A stretch of 48,925 bases of DNA from an uncultured Oscillospiraceae bacterium (GTDB taxonomy: Bacteria > Bacillota > Clostridia > Oscillospirales > Ruminococcaceae), in the NCBI GenBank assembly GCA_934462925.1, contig CAKSIT010000018.1, positions 1 to 48,925 of the forward strand. The letters run 5' to 3'. Both the position numbers and the translations under genes were made by a program. Position 1 is the stretch's first letter. The number at the start of each line of letters is the position of its first letter. Positions 6,401 through 31,654 of the stretch are shown piece after piece. The notes beneath the pieces were generated by a model that saw nothing but the letters and a program-made list of their open reading frames with translations, had not been told where the DNA came from and searched no databases.

Positions 6401-7036
6401 TCAAAAGACCTGCCTCACGAGCCTGCTGCGCCCTGTCGTTGAATTGAACTCTATCAGAGAACCGCCATAAATGCACTGTATTTCGCACCCCCTGTATCTT
6501 TTCTCCACAGTTTCGTGATAGTGTCCACAAAGATTTAATTTCACCTTGCGATGAGCAATGTATCGTGATATTCCTTTCAATCCGCAGTGCGCTTTGTCGC
6601 GCCTGCCCATAATATAGTATGCGGTGTCATGGGATATTAAGATGTCTGCGGGAGGTAACGACCTTGCAGCAGCGATACTTTCACGCTGCGTAAGCATAGC
6701 ATAGCTGCCGTCCTTGTACCGGTGAGAACCGCCGAAGCCTGCAATTGTTATGCCGTTGAGTTTTATTGTTTTCCCGTGCAGGTTAATTATTCCGCAGCGT
6801 TCAAGCTGGTTGAGTTCATCGTGATTCCCAAGGACGCCAAAAATAGGCTTGCGGGAAACGCAGCGTATAAGTTCAAGTGCCTGATTCGGTATATCGCCCA
6901 ACAATATACAACAATGGTATTCGTAATTACAAATCCTCTCCAGTTCCTGCTCACTCCATGAGTGGAGGTCGGCAATAACCATCATTCGCATGATTTCTTC
7001 TGCTGAATTTTTCGCAACATCATTGTGTTTGTGCAT
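6401..7036 (-). CDS. Calcineurin-like metallophosphoesterase
   Basis: The 211-residue protein has all metal-binding blocks of the metallophosphoesterase superfamily in order: D23-x-H25 (VIADLHSW), G47-D48 (LLGDIPN), G70-N71-H72-D73 (LGNHDE), SHD near residue 134 and CGHYHE near 170-175. It is therefore likely an active two-metal phosphatase or nuclease of the cytoplasm; substrate is unknown. The start at 7036 follows GAGGAG with 6-nt spacing. It is the leftmost ICE protein gene, separated from toxN by a terminator and bracketed by two identical 19-bp repeats, which suggests acquisition as a cassette. Similar small phosphoesterases may act on RNA, DNA or cyclic nucleotides. Confidence 0.88.
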   Translation of the reverse strand: MHKHNDVAKNSAEEIMRMMVIADLHSWSEQELERICNYEYHCCILLGDIPNQALELIRCVSRKPIFGVLGNHDELNQLERCGIINLHGKTIKLNGITIAGFGGSHRYKDGSYAMLTQRESIAAARSLPPADILISHDTAYYIMGRRDKAHCGLKGISRYIAHRKVKLNLCGHYHETVEKRYRGCEIQCIYGGSLIEFNSTTGRSRLVRQVF

Positions 7037-7059
7037 ACTTTTCTCCTCTGTGAAATAAT

Positions 7060-7078
7060 TTCATGGCTGAAAAGAAAA
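7060..7078 (-). repeat. 19-bp cassette-boundary repeat, copy 2
   Basis: This copy is identical to 6381-6399. It lies between the terminator after toxN and the phosphoesterase ribosome binding site; part of it forms the T-tract of that terminator on the minus strand. Confidence 0.7.
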
Positions 7079-7106
7079 AGCCCCCTCTCGACGGTAACGG
7101 GAGGGG
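7070..7106 (-). terminator. Rho-independent terminator after toxN
   Basis: On the minus strand CCCCTCCCG pairs with CGAGAGGGG (one mismatch) around a 7-nt loop, followed by CTTTTTCTTTT. It separates toxN from the phosphoesterase gene. Confidence 0.8.
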
Positions 7107-7108
7107 TT

Positions 7109-7124
7109 GTGCTATATGTAGCAC
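7109..7124 (-). promoter_or_regulatory. 16-bp ICE hairpin motif, copy 1
   Basis: GTGCTATATGTAGCAC (plus strand) is a 6-bp inverted repeat with a 4-nt loop. It begins 3 nt after the toxN stop codon and directly precedes the terminator. It is the only copy not placed just before a start codon. Confidence 0.75.
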
Positions 7125-7127
7125 AAT

Positions 7128-7742
7128 TTATAGCTTCGGCTTCTTTTTAGCAGAATGTATCGTGCTGCCACTTGAAGCTCCGGTAAGAACCGTTTCTTTT
7201 GTTTCGGTAGACTCAGTTATTGTCGGCATGGGCAGTTTTTTCTTTGCACAAAAATCCAAGTAAGCTTTTTCAAGCAGCGCAAAGTCGCATGATTTGTTCC
7301 GAAGCTTCTGCGAAGTGGACTGACTTATGCTGACATATGATTTTGTAGCCTGTCGGGCAATCCTGTCCTTGTTCCTGCGGCAGAAAGCAAGTTCCTTTTG
7401 GAGCAGGCGCTTTCTGTCCTCGCTGCCCGCATTGCTAAAATCCATAGGAATCAACATCTGGCGCGGAACAGGTATCATATATGCAAATCTCAGCGAACCC
7501 TTTATTTGATTCTTCTTATCATCGGTCTTTATAAGAATGCTGTTCGCGTCGTCCTTTGTCTGCGATGAAATGGGAACGAAATAGCTTATACCGCTCTTTT
7601 TTGTAATTACTGCGCCGTAGAAGAATTTTTCCCTGTTGGCATATGTAACATTCGGAACGCAGGTAAATCCACGTTCTTTTATTTCAGCGTTTTTCAAGTA
7701 TTCAATATATTCGGGGTCAACATAATAAAATTTGATGTCCAT
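7128..7742 (-). CDS. Type III toxin-antitoxin toxin, ToxN/AbiQ family endoribonuclease
   Basis: The 204-residue product matches the ToxN/AbiQ fold in sequence pattern: N-terminal KFYYVDPEYIEYLKNAE, YFVPISS, the family hallmark AYMIPVP, and the C-terminal run KELAFCRRNKDRIARQA then CDFALLEKAYLDFC. Such toxins are endoribonucleases, held inactive by a pseudoknot RNA that they cut from a tandem-repeat precursor. That arrangement is present here: consensus promoter, three 53-bp repeats, terminator, then this ORF with AGAGGTTGAA before ATG. A 30-residue lysine-rich tail (ending SAKKKPKL) extends beyond usual family length. Role: element maintenance and possibly abortive phage defence. Confidence 0.9.
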   Translation of the reverse strand: MDIKFYYVDPEYIEYLKNAEIKERGFTCVPNVTYANREKFFYGAVITKKSGISYFVPISSQTKDDANSILIKTDDKKNQIKGSLRFAYMIPVPRQMLIPMDFSNAGSEDRKRLLQKELAFCRRNKDRIARQATKSYVSISQSTSQKLRNKSCDFALLEKAYLDFCAKKKLPMPTITESTETKETVLTGASSGSTIHSAKKKPKL

Positions 7743-7768
7743 TTCAACCTCTACTGTATTTTATGAAT

Positions 7769-7794
7769 AAAAAAAGCCGAGTCGCCTCGGCTTT
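7769..7794 (-). terminator. Attenuating terminator between antitoxin RNA and toxN
   Basis: On the minus strand AAAGCCGAG-GCGA-CTCGGCTTT is a perfect 9-bp stem followed by seven T. It lies 27 bp before the toxN start. In type III systems such a terminator keeps antitoxin RNA in excess over toxin mRNA. Confidence 0.92.
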
Positions 7795-7804
7795 GATTGC
7801 TTTT

Positions 7805-7958
7805 CAGGTCGCATTCCCTGTTGTGGTTAAGCAGACGGCAGCGAAACGCCAATAAAACAGGTCGCATTCCCCGTTGTGGTTAAGCGGACGGCAGCGAAAC
7901 GCCAATAAAACAGGTCGCATTTCCCGTTGTGGTTAAACGGACGGCAGCGAAACGCCAC
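7805..7958 (-). repeat. 53-bp tandem repeat, 2.9 copies
   Basis: The copies begin at 7805, 7858 and 7911, each with CAGGTCGCATT, and share ACGGCAGCGAAACGCC. Differences are few and partly compensatory. There are no spacers, so this is a tandem repeat and not a CRISPR array. Confidence 0.95.
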
Positions 7959-7989
7959 TACGATGAGCAATCGAACATCTGTCAAGTAT

Positions 7990-8018
7990 ATTATAACCGA
8001 ACCTTGCAGATTTGTCAA
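7990..8018 (-). promoter_or_regulatory. Consensus promoter of the antitoxin RNA
   Basis: On the minus strand, TTGACA (8018-8013) and TATAAT (7995-7990) are both perfect and 17 bp apart. This is the strongest type of sigma-A promoter, as expected for an antitoxin RNA needed in excess. Confidence 0.92.
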
Positions 8019-8054
8019 GTCCCGCGCTAAAAGAAATTTCCCGCCGCAAAATGC

Positions 8055-8073
8055 TTCATGCCTGAAAAGAAAA
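8055..8073 (-). repeat. 19-bp cassette-boundary repeat, copy 3
   Basis: TTCATGCCTGAAAAGAAAA differs at one base from the two other copies. It lies one base after the stop codon of the replication-initiator gene, at the outer edge of the toxin-antitoxin cassette. Confidence 0.7.
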
Positions 8074-8074
8074 A

Positions 8075-9178
8075 TCACTCCCCGCGCAGGTCGTGGTTCG
8101 CCCGCGCCTGCCAGTAGCTGCCTATGGTCGCAGGGGCGTTGTAGAGCGCCGTTATCATGTAGCTGCGGATATTGCGCACGTCTGCTGCGGTGTTCTTGAG
8201 CGCCTCGACGACGTACTCGATGTGGGAGCTGTCAAGCTTAAGAAATGCGCTCTTGACTACCTCGTGCGGCAGCTCCTCGCCGTTTACGCGGACGGTGGGC
8301 TTCGTGGAGCATACCACGTCCACCATGACCGACACCAGCTCGTTTATGGCGGCTGCGTCTGCGGGTGAACGCTCCGCGAGCAGCTCGCTTTCGGTGTTTT
8401 CGCGTATAAGCTCGGCGTATTCCTCGCGTTCCTGCGCCCTGCGCCGAACGTCCGTTCCATCAATCACATCATCTTCCCCGCGCGTGCGCGGGATAGATAG
8501 ATTGATTATATTTGGTTTATTATCTTTAGTTTTATTAGAGTACAGCTCCTCCCAAACGTCGGAGCTTGCTCCTACCTTTTGGCGGAGCAAGGATTCCCCT
8601 TTCGTCCGAGCTTGCTCCGCCCTTTTGTCGGAGCAGGGAGAATCGGCGCTGTTATGCGGAATATCCGATACAGGCGCTTCTACGGGCGCTTCGGGCGCAG
8701 GTTCTTCTGCGCAGCTTCCCCCGAACGCTGCGGACAGGAACGCGTTCATCTGCTGCGTTGCTGCATTCGGCTCGGCGGGCTTGCGCTTTTTCTCGTAGCT
8801 TTCCGCGGCGGCGGGCTTAATTGCGCGCATAGCGGCTTCTCCCTGCGCGATAAGGCGCTGCAAAAGCTCTATGTCCTCGACGATGAAGAAGCTGCGCTTG
8901 GCGGGCATACCGCGCAGTTCGCAGCGGATAAGCCCAGCCTTTACGAGCGCGTCCACGCTGCGCTTCTGCTGCTTTTCGGAAAGCGCGGTGCTTTCTGCGA
9001 GGTCGGGCGCGGTGGAGTAAAACCACCCGTCGTCGAGCATACCTCGCTCGCTGTACCAGTAATACTTAGCGACTATAGCGCCGTATACTACCGCCTCGTT
9101 CAGCCCTATTGCGTGCGCAAGCGGGCGGTTCACGGTGACGGTGTTCGCGGGGTTGAGAAGCTGAAAAACTGCGTTCAT
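8075..9178 (-). CDS. Winged-helix replication-initiator-like protein (DUF6017-type C-terminus)
   Basis: The 367-residue protein starts with a winged-helix region (residues about 15-110: LNEAVVYGAIVAKYYWYS, then LAESTALSEKQQKRSVDALV and KAGLIRCELRG), as in plasmid/ICE replication initiators and phage helix-turn-helix replisome organisers. A low-complexity linker of about 150 residues follows. The C-terminal helical block (SSHIEYVVEALKNTAADVRN and YMITALYNAP) resembles DUF6017 or DnaD-like tails. AAAGAGG precedes the ATG at 9178. Together with ParAB it suggests that the ICE can replicate autonomously when excised. The exact family name is uncertain. Confidence 0.7.
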   Translation of the reverse strand: MNAVFQLLNPANTVTVNRPLAHAIGLNEAVVYGAIVAKYYWYSERGMLDDGWFYSTAPDLAESTALSEKQQKRSVDALVKAGLIRCELRGMPAKRSFFIVEDIELLQRLIAQGEAAMRAIKPAAAESYEKKRKPAEPNAATQQMNAFLSAAFGGSCAEEPAPEAPVEAPVSDIPHNSADSPCSDKRAEQARTKGESLLRQKVGASSDVWEELYSNKTKDNKPNIINLSIPRTRGEDDVIDGTDVRRRAQEREEYAELIRENTESELLAERSPADAAAINELVSVMVDVVCSTKPTVRVNGEELPHEVVKSAFLKLDSSHIEYVVEALKNTAADVRNIRSYMITALYNAPATIGSYWQARANHDLRGE

Positions 9179-9276: not shown

Positions 9277-11196
9277 TTACTTCGTTTGTTTCTTCTGCTT
9301 TTGTTCTCGCTCCTGCTGCGCTTTCACAAGCTCGTCTATGTAGTTGCCCTCGACCAGCCGTTCATAGGTGCGCACAAGCTCCGAGATTCTGCCGAGCCGC
9401 AGCTGTTCGCCCGATACCTCGTCCTTAAGAGCGTTTATGTATGTCGGGGAAAGCCGCAGGCGGGATTCAAGGCTCTCGAGTTCGTCCGCGCCTGTTATCC
9501 CGTATTTCGCAGCGGTTTCCTTGGCAGCTGCGAGCCTTACCTGACTCATTGCGTCCATTGCGTCCGAGGGTTTCCGTTCAGAAAAGAAAAATTTAAGCTC
9601 CCTGATGTCGGCTCTGAGCGTCGGTATGTCCTCGGAAAGCTGCCTGATTTTTGCAAGCGTATCGTTTATCTTCCGCTGACTTTCCTCGGCGGCGCTGTAG
9701 ATATCCTCGCGGGAGCCGAGGTTCATTTCCTGCATAGTCAGCAGCTGCTCTGACAGGTGGTTTATCTCCCTGTCGTTCTCATAGCAGTAGTGCTTTTTCG
9801 GGTCTGACCTCTGCGGGCGCAGGCGCAGCGAGCGCACAGCAATAACCGTCTGCTGTATAGCGGCGTAAAAACGCTGCTCGGTTTCGTTCGCCTTGGCGGA
9901 ACGCGCCTGAACTGCTCGCGGGAATTTATCGCGCTGCGCAATTCTTGCTTCAATATTCTGCGGGAGATAATCCTCGCCGAGAGTTTTGAGCCGCACGAAT
10001 CTCTGCGCGCCCGGGCTTTTTACGGCAAGGTACTTTCCCTCTTTTATTTCATAGCCGCGCTCGCGAAGCTTGCCGATAAGCTCCGAAAAATTTTCGCAGG
10101 AATACACGAGCGTGTCGATGTCGAGCTTTATCTCGTCGCGAACGCCCGCGTTTTTAATCGGCTGATATTTTGCGGCGATAGCGCAGCAGGTCTTGTACGC
10201 CCAGTCGGGTACGTAGAGCGCGTTCTGTTCTTCAACGTACCGTATGTTCGAGCGCGAAAGCTCCTCGGAAATGAACGCCAGCTTGTCGGGCGAGTACACC
10301 TCGAACGGAACGAACCTTGCGCCCGCTTTTTTTGCGAGAACGCGTATCTTTTCATCTCGCTTCTGAATTTCGCTGCGCATAAAGTCGTTCTGATTTTTGA
10401 TGAGCTTTATGTCCTCCTGCGTGATTTCCGCGTCGGGTTTCTTTTTAAGCTCGTTGATGTGCGTGTTGATTTTTTCAAGCTCCCTGCGGCTCTGACGATA
10501 TTCTTCGCACTCCATGTGCGCGTAGTGAGCGCCCTTGACGTCGCGTGATATACCGCGCTTGCGCAGAAGCTCCGACATAATTTCTTTTTCAGCCGCCGCC
10601 CACATTGCCCACTCGGAATTGCGCTTTGATTTTGATACGAAGCCTTGCTCCTCTAACGCTTTTTTGAGAGAGATTCTTGTGGGAAGTCCCTGTCCCGTAG
10701 TATGGCATATCGGCAGAAAGTCAATGTGCAGGTGAGGCGTAGCCTCGTCAAGGTGCATAACGGCGTTGAACACCTTGATGTTCGGATTGCGCTTTTCAAA
10801 TCCGCGCATATACTCGTCGAGTATCTGCCTGGCAAGCTCATAGTTTTCTTTTCCATAGCCGCAGCTGTTTATGTCGCCGACCTGAACCACGACCTCGTAG
10901 AACGGCTTCTCCTTTTTGGATTGTTCCATGTGTTCGTAGTAGTCGGAAATTTTTCTGTCGGCGCGCGTTTGGCGGGCGTTATACTCTGCGAGAGCCTCGT
11001 CAAAAATCTCGTGATATTTTTCGCGGATATTCTCCTGCGTGTAGATTATGTTGTCGGGAATGCGTTCGCGGACAACGTTCTTTGCGATGAATGTGCGGTT
11101 GTTGTGTTCGACAACGCCTTTGTCCACGCGGAACGTAAGGCTGAGCTTCTGACTGCCGCCTCTGCCCGATTTTCCCGCCGCTGAATTTGCGCTCAT
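9277..11196 (-). CDS. MOBV (Mob/Pre) relaxase
   Basis: This 639-residue protein nicks oriT and pilots the transferred strand. Residues about 20-40 contain VEHNNRTF, the N-terminal MOBV block, and residues about 148-158 contain HLDEATPHLHIDF, the metal-binding HxDE-PHxH motif that defines Mob/Pre relaxases. A long lysine- and glutamate-rich coiled-coil region fills residues about 240-639, as usual for this family. The start at 11196 follows GGAGG. The 428-bp intergenic region upstream holds the candidate oriT. It contains one copy of the strand-biased CAGAAAAGAA motif at 9579. Confidence 0.9.
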   Translation of the reverse strand: MSANSAAGKSGRGGSQKLSLTFRVDKGVVEHNNRTFIAKNVVRERIPDNIIYTQENIREKYHEIFDEALAEYNARQTRADRKISDYYEHMEQSKKEKPFYEVVVQVGDINSCGYGKENYELARQILDEYMRGFEKRNPNIKVFNAVMHLDEATPHLHIDFLPICHTTGQGLPTRISLKKALEEQGFVSKSKRNSEWAMWAAAEKEIMSELLRKRGISRDVKGAHYAHMECEEYRQSRRELEKINTHINELKKKPDAEITQEDIKLIKNQNDFMRSEIQKRDEKIRVLAKKAGARFVPFEVYSPDKLAFISEELSRSNIRYVEEQNALYVPDWAYKTCCAIAAKYQPIKNAGVRDEIKLDIDTLVYSCENFSELIGKLRERGYEIKEGKYLAVKSPGAQRFVRLKTLGEDYLPQNIEARIAQRDKFPRAVQARSAKANETEQRFYAAIQQTVIAVRSLRLRPQRSDPKKHYCYENDREINHLSEQLLTMQEMNLGSREDIYSAAEESQRKINDTLAKIRQLSEDIPTLRADIRELKFFFSERKPSDAMDAMSQVRLAAAKETAAKYGITGADELESLESRLRLSPTYINALKDEVSGEQLRLGRISELVRTYERLVEGNYIDELVKAQQEREQKQKKQTK

Positions 11197-12612: not shown

Positions 12613-15600
12613 TTACTTTTTCGGGCGCTTTTGTGTGTGCGCCTGTGCTTTCTTCTGCGTGGGGGCGGGTTCGGTAAGCTCGTCGTCCGCGGCGAAAACT
12701 TCCTCGCTTCTGCCGCAGTCAAGCTCCGCGTTAAGCTGTTCAAGGCGCGCGGTTTTCTCTTTCAGAACAGCCTCGAACTCAAACGGCATATCAAGTTTTT
12801 TCTGCGCCTGAGCGATATCCGCTTTATCGCTTTCGATACGTTCTTCGCACGCTGCAATCGCCTTTTCAATACCCGTTTTTATTGCGTTTTCAATGCGCGT
12901 TACATTGCCAAGGTTGTTATCCAGCGCAAGCGGCGCGCTGTAAACCAGCCCGTCCGTACGCTTGAGCTGCGCAACGGGGAAGCAGGCAGAACCGCTGCTT
13001 GCAGGTTCAAGACTCAGCTCAAATCCTTTGTATTCGCCGAGCGTTTTTTTGCTGTGAAGCGTTATGCACTTTACAGCCTCCGCCGCTATAATTTCCGCAG
13101 CTTCCGCACGTTCCGTGTAAACGCTGCCGTTAAGCTTTACGGAGAAGTCCGCAGGCTGCGCGGCTGCAAATCTCTTGTCACCGTTAAGCTTTTCGAGCCG
13201 TATTTGCGCAAGCGACAGGTCTGACGTTCTACCGCAAATAACGTCCTGCATTTTATACCTTTCGCTGTAATGCGCGCTCTCGAGCGTGCGCAGCTGCGAC
13301 ACGTCCATGTCAAGCTCGATTTTCTCCTTTATGCGCGGGTCGCCTGTGGCGAGAGCCTGCATTTCGGAGTAATTAAGCACCATCTCGTCAACGTCCTCGC
13401 AGGTTCTCGCGGGAGTTTTACCCGACATAAGCTGCGAAATGAATTTTTGCTTCGTGACGATTATGTTCATCATATACGCGTCAAAGGTGTTTTCGGTGAC
13501 GTAATTGTAAACGCCGACCTCGCTAAAGCTGTTGCCCTGACGGATTATTCTGCCGTTGCGCTGCTCCAAATCCGAGGGCTTCCACGGTATATCGAGGTTG
13601 TGCAGCGCTGCAAGCCTCGTCTGTATGTTAGCGCCTGTTCCCATTTTCGCGGTGGAAGCGATAACTATACGCTTCTTTCCTGCGCGCAGCTCCGAGAACA
13701 TCTCGTTGCGCTGCTCCTGATTCTTGGCGTCGCCTGCGGCGCAAATTTCGCTTGCAGGAACGCCTCTGCGCTGCAATTCCTCTCTTATATAGTTGTAAAC
13801 GGAGAACTTGCCGTCGTCGTCGTTTACTGCGATATCGCAGAAAATAGCCTGAACGCCTTTCTGCTCCTCCGTATTTTTGTAAATCTCCATTACCTTGTCG
13901 ATACAGAGATTTACCTTGCTTGTCGGGCTGTTTTCCGCTTCGGGGTTAATGCAGCGCGCGTCAAGCCCGAGCAGCCGCGCCTCGTGCGTTATCTTAAGCA
14001 TATTGTCCTCGGTCTGCTCCACAGCGCCGCTGTGTATCGCTTCGGAACGCGCTGCGAGCAGCTGTACATATGCTTTCTGAAACTCGTCGGGCTGCGCGAC
14101 GATAGTCTGCGGCTTGCCGCCTGCAATCTCGGGAACGGGCAGGTTCAGCATTTCCTGCGTCCGAATATCTGCAAATTCCTTGTACATCTGCATAAGCTCG
14201 GGCAGGTTTGAGAACTTTGCAAAGCGCTTTTTCGTGCGGAAGCCGTCGCCCGCAGGCTTAAGCTCGAGCTGCGACACCACCTCGCCGAAATTGCTCGCCC
14301 AATCGTCGAACGTTTGCAGTCTTGCGCGTTCAAGGAGGTCGGGGCGTAGATAGCGCTGCATGGTGTACAGCTCTGTCATGCTATTCGTTACGGGCGTTCC
14401 CGTGGCAAAGAGAATATTCTTATTTCCGTATGTTTCGTTGAGATACTGCGTTTTCATGAGAATATCCTCGCTTTTCTGCGCGGGGTTGGTGGTAACGCCC
14501 GATATGTTGCTCATCTTTGACACTACAAGACCGTTCTTGTAGCTGTGCGCCTCGTCAACGACAAGGCTGTCAAAGCCGAGCTGCTCGAACGTAAGGGAGT
14601 TATCCTTTGTCTTGCCGCCCTCCAGCAGGCGCTCAATTTTTGCGCGGATTCGCTTCTGCTCCTGCTGTAAGTCCTTTACGCTTGCCCTGTCGCGTATCAG
14701 AGATAGCTCCTCAAGCCCCTGCTGCACGGTTTCAAGCTCGCGCTCGAGAAAGCGGCGCTTATACTCGATGGACATCGGTATCTTCTCGAACTGCTCGTAG
14801 CTCATCACCACGGCGGCATAGTCGCCTGTGCAGCAGCGCCCGATGAATTTCTGACGGTTATCCTTTGAGAAATCCTTATCGCCTGCGACAAGGATTTTCG
14901 CTTGCGGGTAAAGCCGCAGCCACTCGTTCGCGGTTTGTCCGACAAGCGCCTTGGGGACTACTACGCAGGCTTTATTTATAAGCCCAAGGCGCTTTTTCTC
15001 CATTGTCGCCGCTATCATCTCAAAGGACTTGCCCGCGCCTACGCAATGCGCAAGAAGCGTGTTACCGCCGTACTTAGCGCGTGCCACGGCGTCCTTTTGA
15101 TGGGGTTTGAGCTGTATGTACGGCGACATTCCGGGGAACGTCTGGTGCGCGCCGTCGTAATTGCGCCCGACAATGCTGTTGAACAGCTCGTTGTAGCGCT
15201 CTGTGTATTTGCTGCGGCGGGCAGGGTCGTCCCAAAGCCACCGCGAAAAGGCTTCGCTCATCTGCCTTGCCTTTTCGTTGGCAAGCTGCGTTTCGTCTTT
15301 GTTCAGCTCATACCTGCATTTGCCGTCGCCAAGCTCTATGCGGTCGGTAACCTTGATATCTCTGTGATTAAGCAGATTTTCAAAGATGTGATATGCGCTC
15401 AAGCGCTCTGTTCCGTAAATGCTTGTTGCTGCGGCGCTGCGGTCTGACATCTTATTTTCAAGCTTGTATTCGCCCGAAATCGTGCGGCGCAGGTTTATGT
15501 AATAAACCGAGCGCCCAATGTACTCGTGCAGAAAATCTTCGTAATCTTCGACGTCTACCCACGAAGCGCCGAGCCTTGCGGTTATTTCGCCCGCCTCAAT

Positions 15601-18600
15601 GGTAGGGGGAATTACATTTTCAAGCTCCGTCACGTTGCGCGAAAACAGCTCGGGGTTTTCTCTTGCGGCATACTGCGCCGCGCGGAGCTTGTTGCGAACG
15701 TTCCCCGAAAGGTATTCGGACGACTGTACATAGCATTCCAGCGGCTTCTCGGGGTCGTACCGCGCAGGGTCGGGGAGAATGAGCGCGCTTTCGGAAAGCT
15801 CTGCCACGATGTCCTCGCCTGAGCTGCCGCAAAGCGCGGACATATATCCGATGTCCACGCGCCCCTTTACGTCCATAGAAACCTGCATAGCCTCCTGCGG
15901 CGTATCGACGTGCGTTACTTCGACATTCGGCTTAATGGTGCGCTGCGTGAATATATCCGATTTCTCGGTCGTTTTCTTTTCGGGGTCGATTATTTCCAGC
16001 GAACATAACGTGTTATAATCGTCGTCCGCGCGGAACACATTCGCGTTGAGTCTGTCGTTTATGCTGCCAAAGCTCTTTTTGAAGCTCTCATACTGCGTAT
16101 CGAGCTTCTGCTGCAAGCTTTGCAGATCCACGTCCGTGCAGCTGCGATTCTGCGCTTCGATGAGCTGCACCATAGTCTGCCGCAGCTCGTGCAAACCTAT
16201 CATGCGCTTAAGGTCTTTGCCTGTCTGGGTGACCTGACGCATTATATTGTTTTCGCGGAAATAAAGCTTGCCGTCAACGAGGGCGTGCGTAAAATTGCGC
16301 ACGTCGTCCGTCGCGGGGATAACGCCCTGCTCCTTGTTCTGCTTAACTTCGCGCTTCTGCTGCTTTGCCTGTGCATGGAGATTCGATACGGCGCGTTCCA
16401 GCTGCTCGGACAGCTTTTCACCCTCTATGGGTGCGCAGGTCGTTTCCTGCCCGAACGGTCCTGTGGTGTATTCGAGCTTTCCGAGAACCATTTCGGGGTG
16501 GTCGATAAAGTATTGATTAACGGTAATACCGTTTGAGTTCTCCGCCGTGTAGCACCAGTCGGGCAGCTCAACCGCCATTTTCTCGCGCTTTTGCAGGAAG
16601 ATAATGTCGGCGGTGACCTCTGTGCCTGCGTTCGCCTTAAAGGCGTTGTTCGGCAGCCGTATCGCGCCGATAAGGTCGGCGCGCTTTGCAAGGTACTCGC
16701 GCACCTTGGGGTTCTGCTTGTCGAGCGTTCCCTTTGACGTAATAAACGCCACTATGCCGTTTGGAGCAACCTTATCCAGCGTTTTCGCGAAGAAATAATC
16801 GTGGATAAGGAAATGCTCCTTATCGTAGCGCCTGTCCGCTACTCCGTAATTGCCGAAAGGAACATTTCCGATGGCAGCGTCGAAAAAGTTATCGGCAAAT
16901 GCAGCTTTTTCAAAGCCCTGCACGCGGATATCCGCCTGCGGGTAGAGCTGCTTCGCTATACGTCCCGTTATGCTGTCAAGCTCCACGCCGTACAGCTTAC
17001 TGTCGCTGCTCATTGCCTGCGGCATACAGCCGAAGAAATTGCCCACGCCCATAGCAGGCTCGAGGACGTTTCCCCCGCTGAAGCCGAAGTTACCCAGCGC
17101 CTTGTACATGGCGCTGATTATTTCGGGCGAGGTGTAGTGCGCGTTCAGGGTGCTTTCCGCCGCTGCCTTGTATTCGTCGTCTGTGAGCAGTTCGCGCAGC
17201 TGCTTGTATTCCCTGCCCCATTGCTCGTTAGCCCTGTCGAATACCTGCGGCATACCGCCCCAGCCCGCATATTTAGCGAGTATCTGCTGCTCCTCGGGCG
17301 TTGCGCTGCGGCTTTCGCTCTCGATTGTTTTAAGGGTGGTTATTGCCGCTTTGTTGTTCTGATATTTGGTTTTCAGACCGCCCTCGCCGAGTACCGTTTC
17401 ATCTGTGATACGGAAACCGCCGCTTTGCGCTTGCATTTCGGGTTCAACCTTGGATTTTGCCTGCTCCTTTGGCTGTTCAGCAAAAAGACGATTTTTCTCG
17501 TTCCATTCTGAAAAAGAAATATCCGTTCCATTATCGTATTTGCCGTTATCCAACTTTTTGAAGCTAAACACGCGGTCAAAGCCTATCTCATTTTTGGCTT
17601 TATTTATTAGCTCCATTGCACTGGAGTTTGTGAGTAATTCGGGGTGTCGGGTGAAATCGTCCACAAGGTAGTTCTGTCCGTTACGTACATGGAGCACATC
17701 GACTGCGCCGTTTTTCGTTTCAATGCCGAGGGTAAGCCGCGCGTAAGGTATACCGTCTGCGTTCCCGGTTTCCTCGCTATTATATTGCCGGCTTCTAAGC
17801 TCGTCAAACCTTGCCTTGGCTTCCTCGAAGGTATTGTAACGCTCCAAGCTTGCTCTTTCGGTGCTGTTGTCAGCCCATGTTTTCAGGTCTGCTATTATGT
17901 AGGGAGTCCATACTTTTTCTTCCTGCACGGTTTCATTCAGAGAATATGCTCTGTCAAGCTGTTCGTGACGGTCGAACTCCTGCCTTGCCGCAGTAATCAG
18001 AGCATTTCCTAGAGCTTCCCAAGTGTGGGAAACCTCAAATCCGCCCTTTGTGCGGAAAGTCATGCCGGTATCGGTTTTCTCTGATGAAATCTCAACTCTG
18101 CTGATACCGTCGGCGGGAGGGTACTCAAAATTGAGAAACTGCATATTCCAGTATATTTTTTTTGCAAGCTCGGCGCTGATGTCCTCACCGTTATGGAAAC
18201 GGGTGGTCAGAACCTCAAATTCGTCGGCGCTCAGACTTGCGCCCATAGTCCAGTTGGTTATGCCGCTATATACCGGAGCATGGTCGTAATCGAACAGCTT
18301 ATTGCCTAAGTCGTCCATCTCATCGCTTGCAAGCTGCTTTTCAGCCAGCAAGCCGATGTTGTCCGTCAGCGCCCTTTGAGCTTTACGTTCCTCGCGGGAA
18401 AGAGTGAAATCCGGCACAACGGTAAACCCATAGCTGTCAACGAAATACGCCCTTGTTGTACCGTTTTTCTTTACGGCAACAATATCTCCGACCGAAAGAG
18501 AATGCCCGTGGAAATCCTGCGGGTGGTCAACATTGAAACGCTTGTAGATATCATCGAGCGTTTCGTTCTCCTGCAATCTGCCGCGATAAACACGGTCGTA

Positions 18601-21243
18601 ATTCTCGCGGTCGATATACATTCCGTGATTTTTCAGATATTCGCTGTTGGCGAAGTGGTAGTCCCGCAGCTTTTCATCATCTTTAAGCTGAAAAATCGCA
18701 TATCTCGGCTCGGTAAGCGCAAACAGCTTGCTCAGGTAGTTCCTATCTCGACTTGAAATATCCTCGCTGTCGGACTTGAATTTTTCTACAGCGACGTCGA
18801 AGCCCTCCGCACCACGGTCGAGAAGCTCCTGCTTGCAATGCTCGGTAAGATATTCCATCGGGTCTTCCTGCTCCATTGCGTCGAAAATATCGTCAAAGGA
18901 TATATAGGTGTAGACGAACTGACCACCGGCAGTGCTGTCAGGATTATAGCGTACCCATGTTACATTTTCCGCTTCGGCATTGACATAGAATTTATCTATA
19001 TCGTCCGGTATGTCGTCCTGCTGCTTGTTCTCAATTTCGGATATTGCCGCCTTTAGCTTGCTTAAAACGCTTAAGGGTGCGATGGACTGCTTCTCGGCGA
19101 TGATTTCACCGATACTGTGATATGAGGCATACAGCTCCACGTCGTATGTTGAAGATTCCGTTTCGCTTGCATACGCGGAAACAGAAACGCTGTGCAGGCT
19201 GTCGAGGTACTTTTCATCGGCGTTCCAAATCTCGTTTGCCTGATTGAGCGCCGCGTTGAATTCCTCCACGGTATAGGGGTACTTGACCTTGAAACCGACT
19301 TCTTCCGGCGAGAAATTTCTATTGTAGCTGCCATTCACATAAATAGCGGGGTATGTGATTTTTTCCTGCTGAATATCTTCGCGCAGCTCGTTATACACGC
19401 TGGGGGACACAAGGTCGCATACCGAATTAAGATAATCACGGTCGCTGCGCAGGCTGTCGAGGTAATGCTCGGTGTTGCTTTCAAGCGCCTTGGCGGCGCG
19501 GTCTGCGAAATAGCGGCGGAACTCGTCGGCATTGTACGAAGCCGCAGCCATTTTCAGCTCGTCGGAATAACCGCTCATAAATTCGTGCAGGTTATTTGCG
19601 GCGGCAGCTTTTCTGCTGTCCTCAACGCTCATACTGCCGTCGTAAGAATAGGGGTCGTAGCTCTCATCGGGGTCATAAAAGCGGTCTGAAAAAGGAATGC
19701 CCAGTTCAGCCGCTTTGATTCGTACCTCTTCAAGCTCGATAAGCAATTTATCAACGCGTTCAGCAACCGCAGGAAAAACTTCTTCTCTGAAATCCTTATC
19801 CTGCTGAAACTTGTCGTACAGGGGTGCAAGCTGCTCGGCAGAGTATTTCAAACTATCCTTTTCCTGCCCTGAAATGAGCGATGTAAAATAGCTGTTTACG
19901 GCGGCTCTGACTGCAAGGTTAAAATTCGCCTTGTCGGAGTTTTCGTGCGCGCCGCGAACCGTGCTATTCTCGTAAAGAGCGTAACTCGCCAAATCTATAA
20001 ATTCTAAAACAGAAACAGCGGGGGAATAATCCTCCGCTGTCGCTGTCGTGCTATTTATGCTATTTATGCTCTGCGCTGAAGCACCAGGTCTGTCATCACT
20101 CTGTGCTCCACCTCGAGCTGCTTCGTTTTCTCCCATGCCGCTATTTCCAAAAACGTCGTGGGGCGAGGATTCTTCCGTGCGTACTCCTGCTCCATGTTCC
20201 ACGCCATTTCCTCGGCTTCCGCGTCTATCTGACGAGGGATTATCTCCCACCTCATTCTGCCCTTGAGCGCGGGTATCTCCAGCGGGTGATTCTCCTCCAT
20301 GAAACGCTGCCACGCCGTCCCGTAATGCCCTATCGGGCGCTTCATCAGCTCCTGTTCCTCGTCCGTCAGCCCCAGCTCCGGCTGCTCGAGATAAACGAAC
20401 GTCGTCGGGTCGAGCCTGTACGTCCTGCCGTTCTCCTTGATTATCTCGGGGTAATGCTTCCCGTCCTCCTCGCACCATATCTGACGAACGCCGTTTACTA
20501 TCGTATCCTTGCTCATAAGTGTTCCTCCTCTGAATGTCGTTCACGGTCTTTTCCATCGAAAGCAGCGCCCCTTTGGCGCTGCGCTGCACGAGCGCAAGCA
20601 GCTGCTCCTTCTGCGCCTTGTCTTGCAGCATATCCATAGCCCACGGGTATTTGTCGATAAGGTCGGCGGAACGGTACTTGAATCCGCTCTGATACCCGCA
20701 GCGGGCGGCAACGACGGCGCGCGCCATCATTGTTACGGACTTTACGAAATTTTTCTCCTGCTCGGTAGAAATCCCGAACTCCTTTGCCGCAGCCTGTGCC
20801 GCGCTTGCGGTATGCTCGTCGGTGAGCGCGTCAATGCAGTCGGTAAGCGTGCTGAACTTAAACCCCGCCTGCGTTGAATACGCCTCAACATATTGCGCGG
20901 CGAGTTTGCTGTCAAAGCGCCAGCGCGGCTGTATTTCCCTGCCTTTGGTCTGGGAGATGTCGAAGTAATGCCGCAGCTTGCCGTTCTCGAACGCCGCTAT
21001 CGACCGCTGCCCGCGTTCAACCTGCCTGCCGAGCCGCTGCCACGTGTCGTAATCCGTCACCATATCCGCATTCGGATTTGCGTGGAATACCATCATGGCA
21101 TGGTCTGCGGGAAGCTTATAGTGCCTGCCCGAAAAAGAAAGGTAAGCCTTAAGTGCGGATTTGTCGGAAAAGAGCCTGTCGGTTACCGCTTCGTACTGCG
21201 CGCGAACCTCCTGCTCCCTTTCCTCTCGTGTCTGTCGAGCCAT
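12613..21243 (-). CDS. Giant ArdC-like / methylase-fold / SNF2 helicase
   Basis: The 2876-residue protein carries several domains. Residues 1-240 are ArdC/LtrC-like and probably bind single-stranded DNA (LSFSGRHYKLPADHAMMVFH). Residues 242-393 are a Gly/Arg/Asp-rich linker overprinted by another gene. Residues about 800-1000 resemble YodL/DUF4316 (RYAIFQLKDDEKLRDYHF and NVDHPQDFHGHSLSVGDIVA). Residues about 1366-1560 have a methyltransferase fold (HYTSPEI, VLEPAMGVGNFF), but the usual NPP[YF] is NVPF. Residues about 2040-2620 are an SNF2 helicase: AHCVGAGKS Walker A, DEAH at about 2229, RNGRIIRQGN near 2561. The family is typical of Clostridial CTn elements, where it likely assists DNA processing or protects entering DNA. 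It has its own promoter and three copies of the CTGAAAAAGRA motif. Confidence 0.92.
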   Translation of the reverse strand: MARQTREEREQEVRAQYEAVTDRLFSDKSALKAYLSFSGRHYKLPADHAMMVFHANPNADMVTDYDTWQRLGRQVERGQRSIAAFENGKLRHYFDISQTKGREIQPRWRFDSKLAAQYVEAYSTQAGFKFSTLTDCIDALTDEHTASAAQAAAKEFGISTEQEKNFVKSVTMMARAVVAARCGYQSGFKYRSADLIDKYPWAMDMLQDKAQKEQLLALVQRSAKGALLSMEKTVNDIQRRNTYEQGYDSKRRSSDMVRGGREALPRDNQGERQDVQARPDDVRLSRAAGAGADGRGTGADEAPDRALRDGVAAFHGGESPAGDTRAQGQNEVGDNPSSDRRGSRGNGVEHGAGVRTEESSPHDVFGNSGMGENEAARGGAQSDDRPGASAQSINSINSTTATAEDYSPAVSVLEFIDLASYALYENSTVRGAHENSDKANFNLAVRAAVNSYFTSLISGQEKDSLKYSAEQLAPLYDKFQQDKDFREEVFPAVAERVDKLLIELEEVRIKAAELGIPFSDRFYDPDESYDPYSYDGSMSVEDSRKAAAANNLHEFMSGYSDELKMAAASYNADEFRRYFADRAAKALESNTEHYLDSLRSDRDYLNSVCDLVSPSVYNELREDIQQEKITYPAIYVNGSYNRNFSPEEVGFKVKYPYTVEEFNAALNQANEIWNADEKYLDSLHSVSVSAYASETESSTYDVELYASYHSIGEIIAEKQSIAPLSVLSKLKAAISEIENKQQDDIPDDIDKFYVNAEAENVTWVRYNPDSTAGGQFVYTYISFDDIFDAMEQEDPMEYLTEHCKQELLDRGAEGFDVAVEKFKSDSEDISSRDRNYLSKLFALTEPRYAIFQLKDDEKLRDYHFANSEYLKNHGMYIDRENYDRVYRGRLQENETLDDIYKRFNVDHPQDFHGHSLSVGDIVAVKKNGTTRAYFVDSYGFTVVPDFTLSREERKAQRALTDNIGLLAEKQLASDEMDDLGNKLFDYDHAPVYSGITNWTMGASLSADEFEVLTTRFHNGEDISAELAKKIYWNMQFLNFEYPPADGISRVEISSEKTDTGMTFRTKGGFEVSHTWEALGNALITAARQEFDRHEQLDRAYSLNETVQEEKVWTPYIIADLKTWADNSTERASLERYNTFEEAKARFDELRSRQYNSEETGNADGIPYARLTLGIETKNGAVDVLHVRNGQNYLVDDFTRHPELLTNSSAMELINKAKNEIGFDRVFSFKKLDNGKYDNGTDISFSEWNEKNRLFAEQPKEQAKSKVEPEMQAQSGGFRITDETVLGEGGLKTKYQNNKAAITTLKTIESESRSATPEEQQILAKYAGWGGMPQVFDRANEQWGREYKQLRELLTDDEYKAAAESTLNAHYTSPEIISAMYKALGNFGFSGGNVLEPAMGVGNFFGCMPQAMSSDSKLYGVELDSITGRIAKQLYPQADIRVQGFEKAAFADNFFDAAIGNVPFGNYGVADRRYDKEHFLIHDYFFAKTLDKVAPNGIVAFITSKGTLDKQNPKVREYLAKRADLIGAIRLPNNAFKANAGTEVTADIIFLQKREKMAVELPDWCYTAENSNGITVNQYFIDHPEMVLGKLEYTTGPFGQETTCAPIEGEKLSEQLERAVSNLHAQAKQQKREVKQNKEQGVIPATDDVRNFTHALVDGKLYFRENNIMRQVTQTGKDLKRMIGLHELRQTMVQLIEAQNRSCTDVDLQSLQQKLDTQYESFKKSFGSINDRLNANVFRADDDYNTLCSLEIIDPEKKTTEKSDIFTQRTIKPNVEVTHVDTPQEAMQVSMDVKGRVDIGYMSALCGSSGEDIVAELSESALILPDPARYDPEKPLECYVQSSEYLSGNVRNKLRAAQYAARENPELFSRNVTELENVIPPTIEAGEITARLGASWVDVEDYEDFLHEYIGRSVYYINLRRTISGEYKLENKMSDRSAAATSIYGTERLSAYHIFENLLNHRDIKVTDRIELGDGKCRYELNKDETQLANEKARQMSEAFSRWLWDDPARRSKYTERYNELFNSIVGRNYDGAHQTFPGMSPYIQLKPHQKDAVARAKYGGNTLLAHCVGAGKSFEMIAATMEKKRLGLINKACVVVPKALVGQTANEWLRLYPQAKILVAGDKDFSKDNRQKFIGRCCTGDYAAVVMSYEQFEKIPMSIEYKRRFLERELETVQQGLEELSLIRDRASVKDLQQEQKRIRAKIERLLEGGKTKDNSLTFEQLGFDSLVVDEAHSYKNGLVVSKMSNISGVTTNPAQKSEDILMKTQYLNETYGNKNILFATGTPVTNSMTELYTMQRYLRPDLLERARLQTFDDWASNFGEVVSQLELKPAGDGFRTKKRFAKFSNLPELMQMYKEFADIRTQEMLNLPVPEIAGGKPQTIVAQPDEFQKAYVQLLAARSEAIHSGAVEQTEDNMLKITHEARLLGLDARCINPEAENSPTSKVNLCIDKVMEIYKNTEEQKGVQAIFCDIAVNDDDGKFSVYNYIREELQRRGVPASEICAAGDAKNQEQRNEMFSELRAGKKRIVIASTAKMGTGANIQTRLAALHNLDIPWKPSDLEQRNGRIIRQGNSFSEVGVYNYVTENTFDAYMMNIIVTKQKFISQLMSGKTPARTCEDVDEMVLNYSEMQALATGDPRIKEKIELDMDVSQLRTLESAHYSERYKMQDVICGRTSDLSLAQIRLEKLNGDKRFAAAQPADFSVKLNGSVYTERAEAAEIIAAEAVKCITLHSKKTLGEYKGFELSLEPASSGSACFPVAQLKRTDGLVYSAPLALDNNLGNVTRIENAIKTGIEKAIAACEERIESDKADIAQAQKKLDMPFEFEAVLKEKTARLEQLNAELDCGRSEEVFAADDELTEPAPTQKKAQAHTQKRPKK
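20064..20516 (-). CDS. TnpV-like protein, fully overprinted in the helicase gene
   Basis: A 150-codon frame on the same strand but in a different frame lies wholly inside the helicase gene. It has its own AGAGGAGG site 8 nt before the ATG at 20516. The protein looks natural (WCEEDGKHYPEIIKENGRTY, then PIGHYGTAWQRFMEENHP and EKTKQLEVEHRVMTDLVL) and follows the layout of transposon TnpV proteins: short basic start, IGxYG block, H-P block, and a C-terminal W...H.E block. The helicase frame over the same bases encodes only a low-complexity linker, so this frame is probably the constrained one. Function of TnpV is unknown. The family call is by pattern, not search. Confidence 0.7.
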   Translation of the reverse strand: MSKDTIVNGVRQIWCEEDGKHYPEIIKENGRTYRLDPTTFVYLEQPELGLTDEEQELMKRPIGHYGTAWQRFMEENHPLEIPALKGRMRWEIIPRQIDAEAEEMAWNMEQEYARKNPRPTTFLEIAAWEKTKQLEVEHRVMTDLVLQRRA

Positions 21244-28899: not shown

Positions 28900-31263
28900 T
28901 CACTCACCGAATTTCGTGGTCATAAGCTTATACAGCTTCGTGTCTGTAGGGAAGTCGTCCTTAAACGGCAGCGAGCCGTTCATGCCGCAGTATATAAGCC
29001 CCGAGCCTGCGGGCGCGCCCGTAACATAGTTCATAAGCTCGTCGGGGATTTTGAGTATTCGTGCGAGCTGCTCGCGGTCGCTCGCCGCCTGATTGAGCAT
29101 GAGGATAAACTCCGAATTTGAAAGCATGGAGCGCGCTGTATCGGATTTCAGCAAATCCTCGACGTTTTGCGTAATTCCCGTCGGAATGCCGCCCCATTTT
29201 CTTGCGCGCTTGTACAGCTCAAACAGGAAGTTGGCGCTTTCCTCATTTCTGAAAAGAAGATAAATCTCGTCTATGTAAATGCGGGTGCGTATGCCGCGCT
29301 CACGGTTGCGGACGATTTTGTCCCACAGGTTTTCAAGCACCACCATCATGCCAAGGGGCTTAAGCTGCTTGCCTAAATCCTTTATGTCGTATACGACAAC
29401 GCGGTTATTCACGTTGACGTTTGACGAGTACGAAAACGCGTTCATTGAACCGCTTACATACAGCTCGAGCGAGAGATACAGCGGCTGCGCCGCTTCCGAC
29501 GGATTCTTGCGCAGTATGTTGTAGTAGTCGAGCAACGTCGGCATTTCAAGGCTTTCGCCCATCTGAAACTTCTTGTAGACCTCGTGCAGGCAGGTGTCAA
29601 TAATGGTTTTCTGCTCGGGAGAAATCCCGCTCTTGCCCATTATCGTTTCAAAGAACGATAGGAAGAAATCGTACTTGGCGCTTATCGGGTCGTCCTCGCC
29701 GCTTTGGAACATTTCGGGCGGAATGTCCAGCGGGTTAAGGTGCGACGCGGAACTCTCCGAGATATAGATAAGCTCGCCGCCCAGCGCCCTGACGAGGTTT
29801 GTGTATTCGCGCTCGGGGTCTACTATGATAATTTCATCGTTGGTGGCAAGGAACGTGTTAACCATCTCGCGCTTTGCGCTGAACGACTTGCCTGAACCGG
29901 GGCAGCCGAGTATAAACCCGTTGGCGTTTATAAGACTTGCACGGTTGAAGATAATCAGGTTGTTGGTGGTCTGATTCAATCCGTAGTAAGCGCCGCCTTT
30001 CTGCGACAGCTCCTTGCTATTGAACGGCAGGAACACGGCGGTGCTTTCCGTGGTAAGGGTGCGCCGCACAGGCAGCCGGCAGTTGCCAATCGGCAGGCAG
30101 CTCGCCATAGCGTCCTCCTGCTGGAACGGGGCGCGCGACGTGGTGCAGATGTGCTTGCGGAACACCGCCTCGATTTTCTCCGTATTCGCGTTCAGCTCGT
30201 CGAAGCTCGAGCCTGTAACCATTACGACAAGGTTAAGCAAAAACATCTTTTGGTTTTTGCTTTGCAAGTCATCGAGCAGGGACTCCGCCTCCTCGAGCGA
30301 CCGGCGCAGGTCGTCACCTATAACGTCGGTAACTACGCCGTGCTGCGCCGCCTTTTTCTGCGCCTGAATCTTGTTTGAACGCATAGCTGTAAGCTGGCGC
30401 TTGACGGTTTTTCGGGCTTCCGCAGGGTCTACGGGCGCAATGTTCACCGTCACTACTATCGGCAGCGACGTTTCGCACAGGTCGGTAAGTATCCTGTCAG
30501 ATAACCCCGAGGGCAGCAGCTTAAGGTAAATCATTCTTGCGAATTTGTCGTCGAAAAGAAAATAATCCTTTTTGAACTCGAAATAATCGGGGCAGCAGAG
30601 CGATTTTTCCGCCCCGCGCAGGAACTCCGAGCTGCTTATAGGGCGTATCTCCTGATTTACACCGCGGAATATATCCGCGATTATTCGCACGCGCTCGTTA
30701 GCCTTAAGCACGGTAAGCTCGCTGCCGAGCTTCTGAAAGCAGCTGCGCATGAACAGCTCGATACTGCCGAACCGCTGCTGGGCGGTTTCCAAATCCGCCG
30801 CCGCTACCGTGACCGTGAAATATTTTTTGGTGGTAATGCCGTTCTGCCCCTGCTGCATTTTGTCAAGCAGCATGGCATTGTATTCGTCACGGTACTCGTC
30901 GTAGCCGTCGTCCATATGCCTGAGGAGTATGCGTTGTGCAAACTCCTTTTTGTTAATAACGTTGTTGTGCAACGTTATCTGTATATCGTCCGTGGTGTCG
31001 AAACTATTGAGCAGGTCGCCGTAGGCGAGGAATATCTTTTCCTGCTCCTCGGCGGAAGCCGCCGTATATGACACGTCTGAAAAAGAATAAGTCTTGGAAA
31101 AGCGGTTTTGGCTTACCGCAAAAATATAGTTGCCGCACACGTGGTCGTATGGTATGGTATCCTGCACCGAACGTGCGACCTTGCGCACGGATTTATCCTT
31201 AGCCTTCTTGGGCTTCTTCTCCTTGGCTAGCCGCAGCTTGTCGGCTTCCTTTGCGTTGCTCAT
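28900..31263 (-). CDS. VirB4-type conjugation ATPase
   Basis: This 787-residue ATPase powers the type IV secretion channel at the inner face of the membrane. The N-terminal CagE/VirB4 domain is followed by the ATPase core: Walker A in GFILGCPGSGKSFSAKREM at about residues 450-458, IIIVDPEREY nearby, and Walker B in RIYIDEIYLLF at about 660. The ATG at 31263 follows AGAAAGGAAATAA and overlaps the PrgI gene by 65 bp. The N-terminus is strongly basic. Three copies of the strand-biased CTGAAAAAGAA-like motif occur at 29249, 30551 and 31077. Confidence 0.95.
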   Translation of the reverse strand: MSNAKEADKLRLAKEKKPKKAKDKSVRKVARSVQDTIPYDHVCGNYIFAVSQNRFSKTYSFSDVSYTAASAEEQEKIFLAYGDLLNSFDTTDDIQITLHNNVINKKEFAQRILLRHMDDGYDEYRDEYNAMLLDKMQQGQNGITTKKYFTVTVAAADLETAQQRFGSIELFMRSCFQKLGSELTVLKANERVRIIADIFRGVNQEIRPISSSEFLRGAEKSLCCPDYFEFKKDYFLFDDKFARMIYLKLLPSGLSDRILTDLCETSLPIVVTVNIAPVDPAEARKTVKRQLTAMRSNKIQAQKKAAQHGVVTDVIGDDLRRSLEEAESLLDDLQSKNQKMFLLNLVVMVTGSSFDELNANTEKIEAVFRKHICTTSRAPFQQEDAMASCLPIGNCRLPVRRTLTTESTAVFLPFNSKELSQKGGAYYGLNQTTNNLIIFNRASLINANGFILGCPGSGKSFSAKREMVNTFLATNDEIIIVDPEREYTNLVRALGGELIYISESSASHLNPLDIPPEMFQSGEDDPISAKYDFFLSFFETIMGKSGISPEQKTIIDTCLHEVYKKFQMGESLEMPTLLDYYNILRKNPSEAAQPLYLSLELYVSGSMNAFSYSSNVNVNNRVVVYDIKDLGKQLKPLGMMVVLENLWDKIVRNRERGIRTRIYIDEIYLLFRNEESANFLFELYKRARKWGGIPTGITQNVEDLLKSDTARSMLSNSEFILMLNQAASDREQLARILKIPDELMNYVTGAPAGSGLIYCGMNGSLPFKDDFPTDTKLYKLMTTKFGE

Positions 31264-31654
31264 CTTTATTTCCTTTCTGCTTGCGCTTCTTGGCGGCAAG
31301 CCGGCGTGCAAGCTCTGTGCTGATTATTGCCTCGCGCGCGAACCAGAACACAGGCAGGTCTATGTATTTGCGCTTTTGCGGTTCTGCCCATTTCTGCCGG
31401 TACAGCAGCCGCAGGAAGTCCTCAAAATTTAACCCGTTGTAGCGGAAAAAACCAAAGGCGAGAATCGGCGCTGCGGCAAGCATAACAAGCCAGCCTGTAA
31501 CATCTCCGCCTAGGGCGTCCTTGCCGAAGATATAAAGCGGCACGCATACGCATAGCGCCGCAGCTGCGGAGGCGCACTGCCGCACCGTAAGCCCGAAAAC
31601 GAACCTTTCCTTGTACTCCTTTATCTCTTTCGGGATTTTTATTTCAATGCTCAT
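31199..31654 (-). CDS. PrgI-family conjugation membrane protein
   Basis: The 151-residue protein begins MSIEIKIPKEIKEYKERF, the usual PrgI/VirB3-like opening, and has two membrane helices (about residues 28-48 and 53-75). The tail is Lys/Arg-rich. It lies between TrbL-like and VirB4 genes, the standard order for this system, and anchors VirB4 at the membrane. AAGGAGG precedes the ATG. Its last 65 bp overlap the VirB4 gene. Confidence 0.88.
   Translation of the reverse strand: MSIEIKIPKEIKEYKERFVFGLTVRQCASAAAALCVCVPLYIFGKDALGGDVTGWLVMLAAAPILAFGFFRYNGLNFEDFLRLLYRQKWAEPQKRKYIDLPVFWFAREAIISTELARRLAAKKRKQKGNKDEQRKGSRQAAASQGEEAQEG

Follow-up and report, generated by a model that had tools for sequence, protein, structure and literature searches.

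A ToxIN-family type III toxin-antitoxin locus on an ICE-like element and a predicted, covarying leader-trailer pseudoknot around its antitoxin array

Type III toxin-antitoxin systems of the ToxIN family combine an endoribonuclease with an antitoxin RNA made of short repeats. These measure 34-36 nt in the characterised systems Pa, Bt and antiQ (PMC5086642), and 36-50 nt is given as typical of type III monomers (PMC10853763). In ToxI_Ec two adenines of loop 2 pack on stem S1 (PMC8860590). The CptIN system of Eubacterium rectale, also of type III, has a pseudoknot unit of 45 nt whose long loop forms an extended A-minor twist and not a hairpin (PMC4627078). Loss of the toxI precursor after transcription shut-off has been proposed to free ToxN (PMC10853763), and how the antitoxin RNA of type III systems is degraded is said to be not yet fully understood (PMC5086642).

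The locus analyzed here lies in a window of 48.9 kb, by which we mean the whole stretch of DNA under study. Like ToxIN_Pa, ToxIN_Bt, ToxIN_Ec and AbiQ-antiQ it has the order promoter, repeats, terminator, toxin gene, and its toxin is homologous to theirs in sequence and fold. All parts are on the minus strand. The promoter upstream of the repeats consists of a -35 element of exact consensus (TTGACA, 8018-8013) and a TATAAT -10 element (7995-7990) at a spacing of 17 bp. The toxI array at 7957-7805 was reported by TRF with a period of 53 nt, 2.9 copies, 96% matches and a score of 278, as compared to scores of 50-52 for the other four repeat rows of the window. Its three near-complete 53-nt units, which start with GGCG at 7956, 7903 and 7850, stand directly upstream of the toxin gene, and about three units are also present in Bt and antiQ. 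A rho-independent terminator (7794-7773; 9-bp stem 7794-7786/7781-7773, then a T run) separates the repeats from toxN, which occupies 7742-7128 and encodes a putative ToxN/AbiQ-family endoribonuclease of 204 aa. Promoter, tandem repeats and strong terminator had been part of the original prediction and were recovered as described there. An Rfam search of 6600-8700 gave a single match, RefA1, which was discarded as chance (17.4 bits at a gathering score of 94).

The assignment of the gene as ToxN/AbiQ-like, made earlier from the letters of the sequence, was confirmed by profile searches. The protein matches Pfam ToxN_toxin (PF13958) at 3.4e-32 with 112.3 bits (cut-off 25) and the PADLOC AbiQ profile at 4e-29, the latter being a homology match only; in NCBIfam there was no match at E up to 0.1. 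Among solved sequences only ToxN and AbiQ were matched at E up to 1, with values of 9.5e-13 to 2.2e-7. An AlphaFold model was built from 34 sequences (mean pLDDT 86.2) and compared by Foldseek, where 4ato, 2xd0, 7d8o and 4glk, each a ToxN or AbiQ structure, made up all matches at E up to 0.001 (5.5e-11 to 3.2e-9). CptN (4rmo) followed below these four with E 1.3e-3. Membership of the CptIN family was rejected, as CptN is the closest relative neither by sequence nor by fold search. For ToxN_Pa, Tyr29, Lys33, Thr52, Ser53 and Lys55 are given as active-site residues (PMC5086642). In a pairwise alignment with 2xd0, Y34, K39, S59 and S60 of the window toxin stand at active-site positions as the same or like residues, and the position of Lys55 is taken by T62 with K63 adjacent. 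Y34 and K39 are invariant among the 34 toxin sequences, S59 and S60 present at 90% or more. The basic C-terminal tail, earlier regarded as a notable trait, did not keep this standing: it is disordered in the model (low confidence, pLDDT below 50 at 181-195), and since the number of residues following the motif CDFxxL[EQ] varies from 7 to 173 among the 108 relatives with the motif (median 26.5, window 46), the tail does not stand out. Profile, fold and locus layout thus bear out the type III (ToxIN/AbiQ) assignment, and many relatives of the toxin, rather than lacking the upstream repeats and terminator, have the same layout. Judged by its sequence, the toxin is a member of the known ToxIN family and the locus a type III system ordinary in kind.

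Relatives of the toxin were collected from several sources. A protein search yielded 133, 120 of them among the matches listed. A scan of genome contigs with the 34-protein alignment, one genome per species, yielded 85, of which 80 were kept, and further genome searches added more, mostly distant ones. No relatives were obtained from genome or viral contigs with the window toxin alone, or from viral contigs with the 34-protein alignment. In plasmid records 122 toxin relatives were found, all under 60% identity, and in phage records one; four loci from plasmid and phage records were inspected. The listing for the cluster of the window toxin comprises 36 contigs. Viral contigs searched with a pattern for the long unit gave 0 matches, no stretch similar to the window array was found in plasmids, and window positions 1-25000 shared a single matching stretch of 71 bases with plasmids.

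The repeat had been predicted to be unusually long, and this holds in part. With 53 nt the unit exceeds the 34-36 nt of Pa, Bt and antiQ (PMC5086642) as well as the periods of 58 of the 60 array-bearing relatives (34-55, median 37). Two relatives, L006 and L007, reach 55 nt and are the only ones above 50, the next being L033 (46) and L005 (44); the window unit is therefore long, yet not unique. Moreover, a single 5-bp hairpin in loop 2 accounts for most of the added nucleotides; it is located in the first unit (7956-7915) at 7940-7936/7928-7924. This hairpin distinguishes the window from ToxIN_Pa, ToxIN_Bt, ToxIN_Ec and AbiQ-antiQ and occurs also in L006, L007 and the single-unit locus L075. 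CptIN resembles the window as a type III system with a longer unit, but its toxin is only distantly similar in fold and its long loop is the A-minor twist mentioned above, whereas the extra loop of the window is a hairpin. A different loop-2 hairpin, with a UUCG cap, was noticed in L033.

The window unit can form the H-type pseudoknot core of ToxI, with S1 GGCG/TGCC and S2 TCGC/GCGA, which in the first unit correspond to 7956-7953/7946-7943 and 7950-7947/7918-7915, respectively. An automatic pseudoknot search of the units, which was run without a control and always returns a best pseudoknot, gave S1, a short L1, S2 and a loop 2 of 3-16 nt in the relatives. For the window, L006 and L007 it settled on a different pairing, and the core was therefore drawn there by inspection; for the window it is based on the likeness to the units of relatives.

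The loop-2 hairpin was evaluated on an alignment of the hairpins alone, because a fuller alignment mis-registered it. In eight distinct hairpins from the window, L006, L007 and L075, 38 of 40 cells are paired, the two exceptions being an A.C mismatch in copies 2 and 3 of the window. The covariation score was reached by 1 of 500 shuffles, and an equal score, from 2 pairs only, was obtained with the hairpin slid by +3. Both sides are changed in 2 of 5 pairs, which is not above chance (149 of 500 shuffles). With this both-side count and only eight rows, the support from covariation is moderate. The compensatory change within the array that had been pointed out earlier, namely the pair 7833/7819 of the third copy replaced at 7886/7872 in the second, is present; it belongs to this extra hairpin and lies outside the pseudoknot core drawn as toxin-inhibiting. 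The hairpin marks a place where ToxI-type units accept insertions.

A feature absent from the original prediction, and in our judgement a more interesting one, is a pairing between the two ends of the putative antitoxin precursor. Near the predicted 5' end, 10 nt past the -10 element, begins a leader hairpin (7979-7962) of the order GATG-TTC-GATTGCT-CATC on the minus strand. Its stem, here called outer S1, is formed by GATG (7979-7976) and CATC (7965-7962). The loop contains GATTGCT (7972-7966), which is complementary to AGCAATC (7801-7795) in the trailer between the last repeat and the terminator; these are the two strands, S2 and S2', of the outer S2. Many relatives from gut bacteria seem capable of such a pairing too. 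In the minimum free energy (MFE) fold of the predicted transcript, leader loop and trailer are paired, without the unit cores (the model excludes pseudoknots). The MFE itself is not clearly below that of shuffled sequences (z -0.91; 41 of 200 fold as well).

The occurrence of this outer pseudoknot was counted in 61 arrays, the window included, which were those of 99 upstream regions in which the array was clear, the sequence sufficient and the leader distinct; loci sharing a leader or a trailer were counted once. A structured search gave 40 matches, and six unlike the rest (L028, L058, L081, L107, L108 and L117) were dropped as chance ahead of the covariation counts. The outer pseudoknot was counted in the other 34 of the 61 arrays, 31 of them distinct. 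The leader hairpin begins 8-12 nt past a perfect TATAAT in 22 of the 34 loci; the remaining 12 have an imperfect -10, no -10 that could be found, or a different spacing. As the 34 loci were chosen for pairing, their high paired fraction is partly by construction, and counts with shuffled or permuted trailers are a fairer test.

At least four Watson-Crick pairs in S1 together with at least seven in S2 were present in 30 of 61 arrays. At this S2 length shuffled trailers gave a mean of 2.8 arrays and a maximum of 7, and trailers dealt among the loci 8.6 and 13. With S2 of at least six pairs, 37 of 61 arrays were positive (shuffled 11.6, maximum 18; dealt 19.3, maximum 28); a threshold of five pairs did not discriminate (52 of 63; shuffled 41, maximum 51). 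Alternative array boundaries led to 32 of 61 for an S2 of 6 (shuffled 5.2, permuted 10.1) and 23 of 61 for an S2 of 7 (1.4 and 5.1). A boundary-free rule, by which a hairpin near the -10 must find its complement within 25 nt of the terminator, was satisfied by 32 of 82 distinct loci at S2 of at least 6 (shuffled mean 3.6, maximum 9; dealt mean 8.9, maximum 17) and by 23 of 82 at S2 of at least 7 (shuffled 0.9, maximum 4; dealt 4.2, maximum 10). Two of the 32 were judged chance: L121, where a unit pairs with its neighbouring unit, and L108. Trailers dealt among loci match fairly often because related loci have motifs in common.

Compensatory changes were found in both outer stems. Only S2 was counted on the alignment; S1 was counted by script, since the alignment mis-registers it. 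All 124 of 124 S1 cells are paired, as compared to a mean of 74 and a maximum of 100 in 2000 permutations of the strands among loci, and the S1 types include GATG/CATC, AGTG/CACT, ACGG/CCGT, GTGT/ACAC, ACGA/TCGT, ATGT/ACAT and ACGT/ACGT. For S2, 184 of 186 cells are paired (permutations: mean 168.5, maximum 175), and at most 44% when the stem is slid by one to three columns. The covariation score of S2 was higher than in all 500 shuffles, and one S2 pair splits 17 to 14 between G-C and A-U. Besides GATTGCT/AGCAATC of the window, GATTAC/GTAATC occurs as a natural S2 type. The number of S2 pairs with both sides changed (3 of 6) is not above chance, being reached by 41 of 500 shuffles. The parts follow the order S1, L1 of 1-3 nt, S2, a gap of 0-2 nt, S1', the array, an A-rich strand and S2', as in a single ToxI unit whose loop 2 holds the array. 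The four bases 5' of S2' are A in 106 of 136 cases (background 29%), resembling the A-rich loop 2 of many units.

In a ToxN tree of 84 rows the outer pseudoknot is strongly clustered, with 11 changes against 26.6 for shuffled labels. Among these labels L010 is mislabelled as positive (4 nt upstream only), L005, L013 and L031 were labelled by eye, and duplicates such as L025, L034, L087, L088, L091 and L113 were left unlabelled. The element is mostly confined to a supported 35-row clade, which contains the window, and an 11-row clade of the sister group. In the 35-row clade 18 of 24 testable distinct loci are positive by the boundary-free rule. The misses comprise L008, L032 and L039, positive under the array-based S1/S2 rule, L013, positive by eye with a longer L1, L005 with 5 bp, and L027, in which neither array nor pseudoknot was seen. 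The 11-row clade has 7 of 10 positives; L057 is positive under the array-based rule, L053 has no outer pseudoknot by eye, and L072 is the third miss. The seven boundary-free positives of the remaining 48 loci are L015, L017 and L021, which duplicate rows of the 35-row clade, the chance matches L108 and L121, and L069 and L075. The latter two, single-unit loci with no tandem array and outside the derivation set, have the outer pseudoknot, and so has L148, newly obtained and closely related to L029. The labelled rows stem from records of the Oscillospiraceae, the Lachnospiraceae and the Erysipelotrichaceae and from others that carry no family name.

Some of these loci deserve a remark of their own. 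In L069, from an Erysipelotrichaceae assembly, the leader-trailer pseudoknot flanks a single-unit antitoxin. L075 (L096 and L106 are apparently the same contig) has a single long unit, the loop-2 hairpin and leader-trailer pairing; in the genome search its toxin was matched in two pieces that overlap, which may reflect a broken gene or an assembly error. Bases 1-635 of L013 hold three ToxI-like units with long hairpin-bearing inserts between them, an array that is no longer a simple tandem repeat, and leader-trailer pairing is still seen there by eye. Seven loci outside the clade (L055, L058, L059, L061, L073, L100 and L116) have a starting hairpin and, by eye, no matching trailer; the 5' hairpin may thus be general and the pairing derived. 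Unlike the window, whose array is enclosed by the predicted leader-trailer pseudoknot, the classical loci L121 (E. coli), L122 (E. faecium), L123 (Fusobacterium) and L124 (Clostridioides phage) were not seen by eye to have the outer element, which argues that type III function does not need it.

The best explanation of the whole, to which we give a probability of roughly 0.8, is a ToxIN-family type III toxin-antitoxin system on an ICE-like element, with a leader-trailer pseudoknot that would clamp the antitoxin precursor; clamping is the likely role of the outer pseudoknot. By analogy with the ToxIN family, ToxN would cut the array into units, the units would keep ToxN inactive in an alternating RNA-protein ring, and the RNase would be freed once the antitoxin supply is lost. 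The leader-trailer pseudoknot would tie the 5' end to the stretch just ahead of the terminator, making the precursor pseudo-circular with protected ends and keeping the units together until processing by ToxN. The A-rich strand before S2' may pack on S1, as the loop-2 adenines do in ToxI_Ec. Since loss of the precursor has been proposed to free ToxN, tying its ends could set the precursor lifetime, and the clamp may tune the speed of antitoxin loss once transcription stops. In type I systems, long-range pairing between the 5' and 3' parts of hok mRNA ties the RNA ends and locks the toxin mRNA. The pairing in the window would tie the antitoxin precursor and not the toxin mRNA, and the comparison is an analogy only.

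Somewhat short of even odds is what we would give the more far-reaching proposal that this ToxIN clade of Clostridia and Erysipelotrichaceae has a nested antitoxin RNA, in which a split outer ToxI-type pseudoknot encloses an array that can shrink to one unit. If true, the outer pseudoknot, divided between the 5' end and the region ahead of the terminator, would make the precursor pseudo-circular and set its lifetime and hence the trigger threshold of the toxin. Antitoxin loss is thought to release the toxin, and a structure at the precursor ends bears on that step; a conserved, covarying structure tying these ends would offer a direct handle on antitoxin RNA degradation. In the portions consulted of the open-licence articles PMC5086642, PMC8860590, PMC4627078, PMC5772629, PMC10853763 and PMC5449768, neither leader-trailer pairing nor a loop-2 hairpin of ToxI is described. 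The locus is a long-unit variant, and the covarying leader-trailer pseudoknot common to a clade is newly noticed here.

Instead of acting as a clamp, the pairing might be a transcription-control switch that either helps the terminator or competes with it and in this way sets the toxI:toxN ratio. S2' lies 0-18 nt (median 4) ahead of the terminator stem, so that stacking is possible, and by eye a GTTAC stretch in the terminator arm of L006 could compete. However, the trailer strand overlaps the terminator stem in 0 of 34 loci; both structures are therefore compatible, which speaks against a classical attenuator, and no conserved antiterminator was noticed by eye. Overall, we regard such a switch as unlikely. 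We are equally doubtful that the outer element goes beyond a clamp and forms a split antitoxin unit of its own, able to bind toxin and holding the array within loop 2. The order and geometry of its parts, with an L1 of 1-3 nt, a gap of 0-2 nt and the A-rich strand before S2', are like those of a unit, and two loci with a single inner unit have it. Yet its 5' and 3' flanks are by eye unlike unit flanks, which ToxN_Ec reads base-specifically according to PMC8860590, and loop 2 would have to span about 100-170 nt in three-unit arrays. Quite improbable is a decayed, silent locus in the window: the A.C mismatch in two loop-2 hairpins and the imperfect Lys55 position would fit, but consensus promoter, open reading frame, terminator and outer pairing are all intact, and the listing of the protein's cluster extends to 36 contigs. 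Shared ancestry plus chance, with no role of the complementarity at the RNA level, is the least probable reading, for although subclades share motifs, dealt trailers match more often than shuffled ones and the covariation statistics ignore tree kinship, the counts at S2 of at least 7 beat every shuffle and permutation (30 against 7 and 13; 23 against 4 and 10), and the strands change together in several S1 types and two main S2 types, leaving only 2 of 186 S2 cells unpaired.

The placement of the locus on an ICE, which was also part of the original prediction, is backed by gene content. The window encodes an integrase (42457-43404), a relaxase (9277-11196), a VirD4-type coupling protein (33065-35197), a TraG/VirB4-type ATPase (28900-31311) and a TrbL/VirB6 protein (31665-32513; below its cut-off), together with SSB, topoisomerase and ParA. 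The integrase, the relaxase and the genes of type IV secretion point to an ICE-like element as the carrier. Within flanks of up to 5 kb, the loci of relatives gave no match to the phosphoesterase, DUF6017, TetR and 2957-4405 proteins of the window; its relaxase was matched once, weakly (L001, 24% identity), and its coupling protein twice (L102 and L080). As these neighbours of toxN are mostly absent beside its relatives, the module probably spreads on its own and not together with this element.

Further genes of the window were noted in passing, all on the minus strand. A calcineurin-like phosphoesterase gene (6401-7036) adjoins toxN and matches PADLOC PDC-S10 at 7.6e-12. At 40138-42027 an HTH protein adjoins a Zeta-toxin-like protein (Pfam 1.1e-13), possibly a second toxin-antitoxin pair, and at 43815-48267, near the integrase, a T5orf172 and ResIII protein adjoins an Eco57I-type methylase, likely a restriction-modification pair. 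A very long open reading frame of 2876 aa extends over 12613-21243.
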